28,790 nt of DNA from a virus: the IMG/VR virus record IMGVR_UViG_3300044622_001111, positions 1 through 28,790 of that record; one strand, 5' to 3'. The translations under genes and the position numbers were made by a program. Below, in pieces: positions 25,025 to 27,741 of this stretch. Each line of letters starts with the position of its first letter. Position 1 is the stretch's first letter. The notes beneath the pieces were generated by a model. It worked only from the letters and a program-made list of their open reading frames with translations, was not told the DNA's origin and ran no database searches.

Positions 25025-25378
25025 ATGAACTTTGTAAAATTTACAGAAACCCCAAAAAAAACTTTATATTGCACTGTAAATCCTAGAGGAGTTATATATC
25101 TTAATATAGGTATAAAAAAAGAATTTTCTTTAGAAAAAACCAAGTTTGCAGTGCTTTACCATGATTTGGAAAATAAGCTTTTTTGTATAGAGTTTATTCG
25201 CGACAAAACTGAGGAATACTTATATAGAGTAGTAAACCATGAGTCAGGATCTTATATTAGCGCAATGAGTTTTGTAAGGTTTTTGGGAATTTGCAAAGAA
25301 AAAAAAACAATGTTTCCCGTTAAAAAAGATGGTGATAATCGTATTATTGTAGATTTTAGTGGTGCTGAGACAATCTAA
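25025..25378 (+). CDS. Unknown early protein ahead of the replication leader
   Basis: 117 residues, ATG 25025 with AAGAAAGGAAA at five to six bases. Beta-rich protein: KTLYCTVNPRGVIYLNIGIKKEF, FAVLYHDLENKLFCIEFIRDK, LYRVVNHESGSYISAMSFVRFLG and RIIVDFSGAE suggest a small mixed alpha/beta domain. No catalytic motif or family was recognised. It lies 13 bp after the previous gene, in the same transcript, and 261 bp before the replication gene, an interval holding a promoter and structured leader. Confidence 0.5.
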   Translation: MNFVKFTETPKKTLYCTVNPRGVIYLNIGIKKEFSLEKTKFAVLYHDLENKLFCIEFIRDKTEEYLYRVVNHESGSYISAMSFVRFLGICKEKKTMFPVKKDGDNRIIVDFSGAETI

Positions 25379-25384
25379 AACCAC

Positions 25385-25413
25385 TTGACTTTTCTGTTAG
25401 TGTAGCATACCAA
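25385..25413 (+). promoter_or_regulatory. Promoter of the replication unit
   Basis: TTGACT (25385-25390), 17-bp spacer (25391-25407), TACCAA (25408-25413), putting the transcript start near 25420, at the beginning of the structured leader. Spacer length and -35 match the other promoters. The TGTGTW-N5-TACACA element is not present, so control may differ. Confidence 0.65.
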
Positions 25414-25417
25414 CAAC

Positions 25418-25639
25418 ATGGGGCTAGGCAGGCCAGCCGAAAGCCCAATTCTTCCTTCCTCGGGACGGGTTGCCCTAAAAAAGATGGTGACTGCGTAGCG
25501 GGTGCCTTCTGTTTCCGGGACAAGGAAATGTGTTCCAGCCAAAAATGCCGTGGCTAGAAGGGAAGTAATTAGCCCTTTGAAAAGTTATCGTTCGCCTGCC
25601 ACGGCATTATTTTGAACGAAACAGAACGAAGGAAACCCC
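25418..25639 (+). ncRNA. Structured leader RNA before the replication gene
   Basis: About 220 bases between promoter and the ATG at 25640, visibly richer in G+C than the genes around it. Elements: a 5' hairpin GGGCT-A-GGC with GCC-GA-AGCCC (25421-25446); two mutually exclusive small hairpins (TTTCC/GGAAA at 25512-25516 and 25524-25528, or GGAA/TTCC at 25524-25527 and 25533-25536); a perfect 11-bp stem AATGCCGTGGC/GCCACGGCATT (25544-25554 with 25598-25608); in its loop AAGGG/CCCTT (25558-25562 with 25573-25577). TCGTTC (25588-25593) can pair with either GAACGA copy at 25614-25619 or 25624-25629, making an H-type pseudoknot. No known RNA family was recognised. It may act in translation control, as part of the origin, or both. 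Confidence 0.5.
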
Positions 25640-26497
25640 ATGAAAAAGAGTTTTATCCTGTATCAGGACTACGAACAGCACATCCAGTTGCTAACGGATG
25701 AACAGGCTGGGAAACTTTTAAAAGCCATTTTTTTATACAATCAGGGTCATGATGTGGAAATGGAACCCATCGTGCAGATGGCATTCAGTTTTATCAAAGT
25801 GAACCTTGATAGAGACATGGAAAAATATGAGTCCGTGAAAGAAAGAAACAAGATCAATGGTTTAAAGGGTGGACGCCCATCAAAAACAGAGGAACCCAAA
25901 GAAACCCAAAATAACCCAGTGGGTTTATCTGGGTTAGAGTCGGTTAATTTAGAAACCCAAAATAACCCAAAAAAACCTGATACTGATACTGATACTGATA
26001 CTGATACTGATACTGATATTTTAAAAAAGAAATCTATAAAGAAAAAAGCTGAATCGACAGCGTTGGTTTGTAAAACCATAACGCCTGTGAGTTTTCGATT
26101 AGCCCCCATCAAAAGCACTACGCTGGAACCCCACTACAGGGACGACCAAGAGTTCATGGCGTTTTGGGAGATGTATCCCAGAAAGCGCAGGGGTGATCCG
26201 CACGCGGCGTACAAGACTTGGCAGGAATTAATTATTTCCGGTGAGGTGAGTACCGAGGCGATTATGCAAGGGTGCCACCAATATGCCAACAGCCGTGAAG
26301 GCTCTGGTCAATACGCCCAAGGATGCCAGAGATGGCTTAACGACTACGGATGGATGAAAAACTACACAACCCAAGGAGACCCACATGCAAAATTTAACCC
26401 AGTACAAACCATCATCAACCTCAGAGACACAGGAGGAGAACTTAAGGAAGGCATTGATTACACTGTCATTTGTGGTGAACGTGTCCTCAACTACTGA
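25640..26497 (+). CDS. Replication initiator-like protein with DUF6291-type N-terminus
   Basis: 285 residues; start ATG 25640 with GAAGGAAA six bases before. Residues 1-90 (SFILYQDYEQHIQLLTDEQAGKLLKAIFLYNQGHD, IVQMAFSFIKVNLDRDMEKYESVKERNKINGLKGGRPSK) fit the DUF6291 domain found at the start of phage replication proteins. Residues about 90-135 are a flexible linker (EEPKETQNNP, then (DT)6). The C-terminal part (EFMAFWEMYPRKRRGDPHAAYKTWQEL, ANSREGSGQYAQGCQRWLNDYGWMKNY) has the FW-x-x-YP-R/K-K pattern plus late WL-x-x-x-W seen in phage O-like and primosome-type replication proteins. The linker is encoded by a DNA region that may be the origin. Role: origin recognition and loading of host helicase, by analogy with lambda O. 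Confidence 0.7.
   Translation: MKKSFILYQDYEQHIQLLTDEQAGKLLKAIFLYNQGHDVEMEPIVQMAFSFIKVNLDRDMEKYESVKERNKINGLKGGRPSKTEEPKETQNNPVGLSGLESVNLETQNNPKKPDTDTDTDTDTDTDILKKKSIKKKAESTALVCKTITPVSFRLAPIKSTTLEPHYRDDQEFMAFWEMYPRKRRGDPHAAYKTWQELIISGEVSTEAIMQGCHQYANSREGSGQYAQGCQRWLNDYGWMKNYTTQGDPHAKFNPVQTIINLRDTGGELKEGIDYTVICGERVLNY
25893..25969. repeat. Phased AACCCA iterons: candidate replication origin
   Basis: AACCCA occurs at 25893, 25903, 25913, 25954 and 25964, and its complement TGGGTT at 25920 and 25930. Spacings within each group are exactly 10 bp. As 10 is not a multiple of 3, the copies fall in different reading frames, so they are not due to a repeated peptide. An AT-rich stretch follows (26017-26048). 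Iterons within the initiator gene followed by AT-rich DNA is the lambda ori layout. Confidence 0.6.
25979..26014 (+). repeat. Six tandem copies of GATACT
   Basis: A 36-bp run of GATACT x6, followed by a seventh unit with one change (GATATT, 26015-26020). It encodes Asp-Thr x6 in the linker of the replication protein. Six bases equal two codons, so slippage changes linker length in steps of two residues without frameshift. Confidence 0.9.
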
Positions 26498-26507
26498 ACA
26501 AGGCACG

Positions 26508-26930
26508 ATGGATTTGAAGATTAACGAGTACTGCCGATTGATAAAATTAGAAGGCTATTCTTACGATGTGGTCTTAATGGCCGTTCAGAGGCTCAAGGGA
26601 CGTGTTAAGTTTTTTCCCTCATGGTTAGACCTAAAAGAAGAGATCGACGTCTGTAGGTACCTTAAAACGTCAATGGAGGGCAAAACAGAGTCTGGGGTAA
26701 GGTTTCTTGAAAAGTTATATCCTATGTTGCCAGCGGAGGTGGACAGGTGGCAAGCGGAGGTAGATTTTCGCGCTGTGCAGATAAAAATTCATGATGACGA
26801 GGTGGAGATATGCCTTGAAAAGGCACCGGCGCAAACCATAGTTGAAAAATATGCGAGTTATTTTAGCAGGATTTTTCCTGATAAGCAGATCACGGTGGTT
26901 TCATCTAAGGGCGCAAGGGCCAAGGTATGA
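26508..26930 (+). CDS. Probable replication-associated protein (helicase loader-like)
   Basis: 140 residues from ATG 26508 with AAGG upstream; an earlier start at 26385 overlaps the previous gene by 113 bp and has a less likely N-terminus. Residues about 5-45 (YCRLIKLEGYSYDVVLMAVQRLKGRVKFFPSWLDLKEEIDVC) have the pattern of alphaproteobacterial phage replication proteins, with V-x-x-A-(V/L)-x-R/x-(L/W) followed by F-(F/W)-P-(S/A)-W-x-(D/E)-L. The C-terminal part (VEICLEKAPAQTIVEKYASYFSRIFPDKQITVV) slightly resembles the surface-binding module at DnaA ends, a weak likeness. The gene follows the initiator by 10 bp, a normal initiator/loader pairing as for lambda O and P. Confidence 0.55.
   Translation: MDLKINEYCRLIKLEGYSYDVVLMAVQRLKGRVKFFPSWLDLKEEIDVCRYLKTSMEGKTESGVRFLEKLYPMLPAEVDRWQAEVDFRAVQIKIHDDEVEICLEKAPAQTIVEKYASYFSRIFPDKQITVVSSKGARAKV
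26907..26919. repeat. 13-bp direct repeat, left copy
   Basis: AAGGGCGCAAGGG lies in the 3' end of the replication-associated gene. An identical copy is at 27368-27380, in the 3' end of the next gene. The two copies enclose one small gene and the intergenic region. Confidence 0.85.
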
Positions 26931-26997: not shown

Positions 26998-27384
26998 ATG
27001 GAAACGTCACAAGGTAAAATAATTGAAAACATCATGCGTGCTTACTGCACAAAAGACCTTAAAAGCAGAAAGCGCTTTCAAATTAAAAAAATATCACAGT
27101 ATATTTTTCATCATGATTTAACACGTTACAGGGTTGATTTTATTGACGTTGAAAATAATAAAAAATACCCGAATTGGCTAGATACATTTACATTTTTTTA
27201 TTCTCCAGGTTGCAAGGATTTGGAATATAGGGTGGTATGCCCCAACCGTAATTATACCAAAAGAGCTGAAATAGGGGTTTCACGTCAACCGCTTTCAGAA
27301 GGGAAAACTGAAAGTGAAGTGGAGGAAGAGATTCTTGATGAGTTTAAAAAATTTATAGGTTTTAACCAAGGGCGCAAGGGTTAA
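26998..27384 (+). CDS. Unknown early protein between two direct repeats
   Basis: 128 residues from ATG 26998 with AAAGGG at seven bases; a start seven codons earlier has no comparable site. The protein has a basic helical start (SQGKIIENIMRAYCTKDLKSRKRFQIKKISQYIFHH), then strands (TRYRVDFIDVENNKKYPNWLDTFTFFYSPG, EYRVVCPNRNYTKRAEIGVSR) and an acidic C-terminal helix (EGKTESEVEEEILDEFKKFI). No family recognised. It is framed by 13-bp direct repeats and may be a separately acquired insert ('moron'). Confidence 0.5.
   Translation: METSQGKIIENIMRAYCTKDLKSRKRFQIKKISQYIFHHDLTRYRVDFIDVENNKKYPNWLDTFTFFYSPGCKDLEYRVVCPNRNYTKRAEIGVSRQPLSEGKTESEVEEEILDEFKKFIGFNQGRKG
27368..27380. repeat. 13-bp direct repeat, right copy
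   Basis: AAGGGCGCAAGGG, identical to 26907-26919, within the last codons of the gene ending at 27384. A promoter for the next gene follows 15 bases later. Confidence 0.85.
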
Positions 27385-27394
27385 AGTTTAAGGC

Positions 27395-27429
27395 TTGACG
27401 GTGGTTTGTGTTTGTGTTATGCGTACACA
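27395..27429 (+). promoter_or_regulatory. Promoter and operator for the 3' small-gene cluster
   Basis: TTGACG (27395-27400), 17-bp spacer (27401-27417) and TATGCG (27418-27423). The element TGTGTT-ATGCG-TACACA (27413-27429) overlaps the -10 box, the same type as at 21069-21085. The first gene starts at 27448 with AAGGAGG before it. Confidence 0.7.
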
Positions 27430-27447
27430 ACAACAAGGAGGTGAATC

Positions 27448-27741
27448 ATGAGTGCTAAAATAACAGATGAGCTGTACATGGTAGCATGTGCTTTTGAGGG
27501 TAAAGAAATTGGCTCTGATTTTTTTCGTAAAATAATTGACCTTAAGCAAGGAAATGCAGTTTTGGAGGCTGTGGAGGCTATAGAAATTCTTTATGGGGAG
27601 TTACGTAGGTTACTTTATACGGCAAATTTAATCCTCGAAAACCACAAATATAGAATTGGGGATGATTATGGAAAATTAGTAGAAGCCATTTATGCAGCAA
27701 ACCTTGTTCTTAAAAAATATGAACGGGAAAATGAATCATGA
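27448..27741 (+). CDS. Unknown helical protein
   Basis: 97 residues, ATG 27448 with AAGGAGGTG at seven bases, one of the strongest ribosome-binding sites here. Helical protein (VLEAVEAIEILYGELRRLLYTANLIL, then YGKLVEAIYAANLVLKKYEREN) with a central internal likeness between the two halves: ILYGELRRLLYTANLIL and DYGKLVEAIYAANLVL share Y-G-x-L-x-x-x-(L/I)-Y-x-A-N-L-(I/V)-L, suggesting a duplicated helical hairpin. No family was recognised. Its end overlaps the next start (ATGA). Confidence 0.55.
   Translation: MSAKITDELYMVACAFEGKEIGSDFFRKIIDLKQGNAVLEAVEAIEILYGELRRLLYTANLILENHKYRIGDDYGKLVEAIYAANLVLKKYERENES

Follow-up and report, generated by a model that had tools for sequence, protein, structure and literature searches.

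The subject of this analysis is a gene in a 28,790-nucleotide stretch of viral DNA (IMG/VR record IMGVR_UViG_3300044622_001111, positions 1 to 28,790; this whole stretch is called the window below), which also encodes head and tail genes and has one gene distantly resembling Sak4 recombinases. The gene belongs to the DUF6291 family, and seven short repeats (iterons) of the sequence AACCCA lie within its coding sequence, followed by DNA of low stability. Very probably it encodes a phage replication starter together with the sites that would be bound by its own product; an original prediction made from the letters of the window had proposed a likely replication origin inside this gene, with an initiator-like product.

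The gene, its product and the iteron array

A profile search against Pfam matched residues 4-81 of the product to PF19808 (DUF6291; E=3.2e-27, 94.9 bits against a curated cut-off of 27.2). This was the sole Pfam hit at E<=0.1, the lambda O family (replication protein O) being unmatched, and the matches in phrog were to 'primosomal protein' and 'replication initiation protein'. In the AlphaFold2 model, the N-terminal domain (N-domain) reached a predicted local distance difference test score (pLDDT) of about 95, with helices at residues 9-16, 20-34 and 43-75, and the linker (residues 87-167) mostly scored below 50, i.e., it is predicted to be disordered. A short segment, ERNKINGLKGGRP, called the tail here, was placed at the end of the last N-domain helix. 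A sequence search against solved structures returned no relevant match, nor did Rfam and transfer RNA scans of the whole window return any.

All seven copies of AACCCA/TGGGTT that had been claimed to fall within 77 bp were found at the positions and on the strands listed in Table 1, and iteron 3 together with the first inverted copy forms a palindrome, AACCCA-G-TGGGTT, at 25913-25925. The hexamer is not enriched in the window as a whole (25 observed, 22.6 expected), and the only four same-strand pairs with 10-bp phasing all lie in the array, none being seen in 100 shuffles. Markov simulations (300) gave at most 3 AACCCA copies per 77 bp, and no hexamer of three or more letters passed 4 copies per 77 bp in 100 simulations. 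When synonymous codons were resampled with the peptide fixed, the mean was 0.75 copies and the maximum 6 in 200,000 draws, against the 7 observed; across the family (52 genes, synonymous-codon expectation), 199 copies were observed where 26.5 were expected given the peptides. The repeats are thus under selection at the DNA level. The earlier argument that the spacing, not being a multiple of three, speaks against a repeated peptide holds within the groups of iterons and fails between them, where a 19-bp exact repeat (copies 25903/25913 and 25954/25964), 51 bp or 17 codons apart, encodes ETQNNP twice.

The AT-rich DNA reported to follow the iterons, at 26017-26048, was recovered by a nearest-neighbour scan as the least stable 50 bp of the region, at 25998-26047; only 0.06% of the 50-mers in the window are less stable. 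This stretch overlaps a tandem block of GATACT hexamers that has a strong codon bias in 69 genes: serine is written AGT in 88% of cases within the block and 19% elsewhere in the gene, aspartate GAT in 95% and 64%, and asparagine AAT in 96% and 56%. Such extreme bias implies either that the block is conserved for its DNA sequence as well, or that it grows by hexamer slippage; a role as entry site for helicase loading or for single-stranded-DNA binding would be guesswork. In DUF6291 initiators the iterons are followed by such a C-poor tandem block (GATACT, GATAGT or ACTAATAAT); a comparable block, of TACTAAT/TACTGAT type, stands at the corresponding place in the initiators of 80alpha and TP901-1, whose N-domains are unrelated. 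The loci concerned are 25979-26017 of the window, L520:3818-3873 and L521:3101-3155, the L-numbers here and below being labels of the loci compared. In Aeromonas phage 4_L372X (L019:3001-3369) the tandem block reaches an ambiguous base N, at which the reading frame shifts; the annotated gene is short because of this change of frame, which probably stems from a sequencing problem or from slippage in the repeat.

Table 1. Features in and around the putative initiator gene, in positions of the window
Feature	Position	Strand	Basis
Putative initiator gene, 285 residues	25640..26497	+	Open reading frame; N-domain of DUF6291 type, linker predicted to be disordered, C-terminal part helical
Part coding for residues 4-81, the DUF6291 domain	25649..25882	+	Profile match; three predicted helices
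Tail with putative recognition role, ERNKINGLKGGRP, residues 68-80; N70 is the key position	25841..25879	+	Tail class predicts iteron in relatives
Iterons 1-3, AACCCA	25893, 25903, 25913 (25893..25918)	+	Sequence
Iterons 4-5, inverted copies (TGGGTT)	25920, 25930 (25920..25935)	-	Sequence
Iterons 6-7, AACCCA	25954, 25964 (25954..25969)	+	Sequence
GATACT tandem block, codes for DTDTDTDTDTDTD	25979..26017	+	Sequence; family-wide codon bias
The region's least stable 50 bp, a likely duplex-unwinding element	25998..26047	.	Nearest-neighbour scan
Junction zone common to both recombinant kinds	26021..26066	+	blastn block starts (L003, L004) or ends (L006-L008)
C-terminal cassette of initiator	26067..26497	+	Swapped with next gene in L006, L008
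Next gene, 181 residues, overlaps initiator	26385..26930	+	Open reading frame; co-inherited with C-terminal cassette in L003

Relatives and natural recombinants

The DUF6291 genes of Vibrio, Shewanella, Pseudoalteromonas and Aeromonas phages bear the annotation 'hypothetical'. Where the gene directly downstream was available and has a name, it encodes a DnaB-like helicase in Vibrio 1.265.O, Vibrio 1.240.O, Shewanella ZP9 and Aeromonas 4_L372X, replication protein P in Vibrio 199E37-1 and a DnaC-type protein in Cellulophaga phi13:2, and among the relatives, C-terminal parts gave matches to 'replication initiation O-like' and 'DnaD-like helicase loader'. In lambda, the N-terminal part of O binds DNA and the C-terminal part works with the product of the next gene, P; the 181-residue protein of the window is the positional counterpart of P and a putative helicase loader.

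In most relatives the linker has the same layout of AACCCA copies, palindrome and further copies, followed by (GATAGT)n. After dereplication, the AACCCA class of DUF6291 comprised 42 genes, in which 86 of the 107 pairs of same-strand neighbours were spaced by 9 or 10 bp, the remainder being nearly all two turns apart; inverted spacing was mostly 7 or 13 bp. The 7-bp form recurs in both the DUF6291 family and the DUF1376 family, and in the latter direct iterons are spaced by 11 bp rather than 9-10 bp. More than one reading frame is used by the hexamers in 39 of the 42 genes. The comparison of relatives suggested by the original prediction, in which the peptide might have been kept and the phasing lost, thus gave the opposite result, the 9-10-bp phasing being kept while the reading frames vary.

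Two kinds of natural recombinants were found with blastn. Up to 26066, L006-L008 are 94-97% identical to the window; from there to about 27393 they diverge, and in L006 and L008 the replacement took in both the C-terminal part and the gene that overlaps it. Conversely, L003 and L004 are 98-99% identical to the window from 26021 on, up to and including the next gene, with a different N-domain and linker; the record of L003 has no DUF6291 match and its linker no AACCCA, and L004 is of the same sequence class. Both kinds of swap therefore indicate that the N-domain, iterons and tandem block form one cassette and the C-terminal part and its partner another, and the two meet in unstable DNA. Separate exchange of such cassettes is the arrangement of lambdoid O and P. 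Together with the gene context and the O-like C-terminal parts, these swaps support the reading as an initiator of the lambda-O type whose origin would lie inside the gene.

The two further AACCCA copies at 26368 and 26396, which had been listed with the array, exist and are both kept in L003 and L004, with their different N-domain and no AACCCA iterons; they were rejected as members, since copies retained in iteron-less relatives ride with the C-terminal coding sequence. Two other stretches are conserved around the cassettes. Upstream of the gene, a noncoding segment of about 100 bp (25376-25475) is 86-92% identical even where the N-domain cassette differs, and has no Rfam match; a short stretch at 27358-27452, conserved in the recombinant relatives, forms the right-hand border of the exchanged C-terminal/partner cassette and is possibly a recombination boundary.

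Pairing of tail and iteron

To judge from the sequences compared, the iteron varies with the short tail at the end of the last helix of the N-domain, a relationship that is new here. DUF6291 genes with a tail of the form [NQ][GA]xxGGRP carried at least two AACCCA copies in 42 of 53 cases, and those with other classified tails in 0 of 30; the same split of DUF1376 genes gave 12 of 13 and 0 of 11. Tails of the form [AS]GxxGG go with AGCAAA and AGxxGM tails with ATAACA, AxxRW tails go with ATGCGA in about half of the genes of both families and NIxKRW/Y tails with ATACC in some, and TTCAAC is another iteron paired with a tail type. In the set of 110 xGxxGG tails whose iteron was clear, the residue at tail position -3 explains all of the iteron entropy (0.93 of 0.93 bits): N, Q, S or A stands with AACCCA (72), and R (36), Y or L with AGCAAA. 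Position 0 (N or A) was also tried as the best correlate and rejected as weaker (0.72 bits, against 0.93 at -3), because KRSENG tails carry AGCAAA.

The association was also approached from the DNA side. A scan of viral contigs with AACCCASTGGGTTNNNNTGG gave 119 loci, of which 91 had a GG[RK]P-type tail just upstream and in the same frame; as distinct loci, 26 had such a tail and 24 did not. Besides DUF6291 and DUF1376, the N-domains at these loci include one that has no match in Pfam. The corresponding scan for AGCAAA arrays gave 32 loci, with an xGxxGG tail in 31 (21 distinct, 20 of these not GGRP). Five pairs of genes have N-domains of 68-86% identity with unlike tails and unlike iterons, and in the model of a DUF1376 protein the tail again forms the end of a long helix (80-101).

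The broader proposal, that a portable tail (the helix end and a GG[RP] arm) is the sequence-reading element of many phage initiators, carried on different N-domains, with residue 70 (N/Q/S/A or R) tracking the switch between AACCCA and AGCAAA, seems to us evenly balanced between true and false. If true, the replication specificity of many phages could be read from sequence. In the literature searched, no paper named DUF6291, and the papers that mention DUF1376 concern, by title and abstract, other subjects.

Proposed mechanism, alternatives and known systems

As the full explanation, it is considered highly probable that the product of the gene is a phage initiator of theta-type replication and that the gene carries its own origin. 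With the GGRP arm and the adjacent end of the last helix, the DUF6291 domain would bind the seven AACCCA iterons encoded in its own linker, with about one protomer per helical turn on the array, central palindrome included. The resulting complex would open the adjoining unstable DNA, at about 25998-26047, where replication would start, and the C-terminal part and the overlapping 181-residue protein would bring in the host replicative helicase.

Several points weigh against this account or bear on its limits. The tail classes were defined after the data had been seen; the rule was therefore frozen and then tested on 23 new loci, from which duplicates of earlier contigs had been removed, and 19 of them agreed, 1 was contrary and 3 had neither motif. 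A class-level search of bacterial genomes for a larger hold-out yielded no new DUF6291 gene. L448 and L392 are contrary to the tail rule, the latter having a GGRP tail (NRENGKSGGRPSNEQ) with an AGCAAA array, and several NG..GGRP tails from Firmicutes carry AACCGA or no clear repeat. In a tree test of correlated change, there were only two independent tail changes on well-supported N-domain branches, for which reason no significance is claimed. Because the tail lies next to the iterons, part of the pattern is explained by common descent of that segment. When the DUF6291 model was compared against solved structures, no fold scored below E=4, and the 181-residue product had no family hit above cut-off in Pfam or phrog.

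The alternative that survives best, though an improbable one, is that the array is an operator at which the protein would regulate its own operon's transcription, or the passage of transcription across the site, rather than start replication. The conservation of the array fits any role of a bound protein, and the array lies within the transcribed early region; it is, however, placed ~250 bp inside the coding sequence, beside DNA that is among the least stable in the window, and the relatives' genes adjoin helicase and loader genes and have C-terminal parts of replication type. Marginally less probable again is the binding of the repeats by another host or phage protein, with the co-variation of the tail reflecting the hitch-hiking of linked sequence. 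Recombination would move the adjacent tail and iterons together whatever binds, but this alone would not yield a consistent pairing in two N-domain families, and DUF1376 genes combine the same tail and the same hexamer with another spacing and other linker peptides. That the hexamers simply follow from a repetitive, low-complexity linker (TQ/NP/EP), as the twice-encoded ETQNNP might suggest, has a negligible chance, being refuted as the sole cause by the synonymous-codon test, in which 0 of 200,000 draws reached 7, and by the use of three reading frames and both strands.

Read as an initiator gene with an embedded origin, the gene has phased iterons beyond the constraint of the peptide and easily melted AT-rich DNA alongside; a helicase or loader gene next door is present in relatives, the next gene of the window itself being without a recognisable family. 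It is best filed, by its presumed function, with the intragenic-origin initiators lambda O, SPP1 G38P and 80alpha ORF20. In lambda and Stx phages, iterons and an AT-rich tract lie in the middle of gene O (PMC7466680), and the order is the same here. The differences are the DUF6291 N-domain, predicted to be all-helical and without a match to another Pfam replication family, the hexamers one turn apart with a central palindrome in place of the longer inverted-repeat iterons of lambda, and an apparent specificity that tracks with a short tail. ORF20 of 80alpha could not be complemented in trans, which its authors read as suggestive of an embedded origin, as for SPP1 G38P, with the helicase-loader gene directly downstream of the initiator gene (PMC5499656). 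In 80alpha the linker repeats are followed by a tandem TACTAATAAT block, the order seen in the window, but the N-domains and iterons of ORF20 and G38P are unrelated and lack an NG..GGRP-type tail. Rep (ORF13) of the Lactococcus phage TP901-1 likewise has repeats and a tandem block in the linker after the N-domain, which is unrelated, and its repeats differ. The phage proteins with DUF1376 (PF07120) share the tail classes and their linker iterons on another N-domain family, the model of which is only weakly winged-helix-like.

DUF6291, a domain of unknown function, can thus be assigned as the putative origin-binding part of phage initiators. As the origin would be readable in the same gene, the origins of many uncultured phages could be located from sequence alone, and the tail-iteron pairing makes a change of origin specificity testable with natural protein pairs. 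A precedent for such co-variation is given by RepA of the PLE satellite and Odn of ICP1, in which the DNA-binding domain co-varies with the iterons, the C-terminal domain is kept and the cognate pairing was established by experiment (PMC8263062). The PLE origin is intergenic, with iterons of about 30 bp and a RepA_N domain, whereas here it would be intragenic with a short tail as the correlate. In two DUF6291 initiators among the relatives (L490:1489-2442 and L228:2495-3439), a T5orf172 (GIY-YIG-type) nuclease domain is inserted in frame between the tail and the linker, and L490 retains AGCAAA iterons and the C-terminal part. These insertions recall the origin-directed nuclease Odn of ICP1 (PMC8263062) and suggest a route by which origin-directed nucleases may arise.
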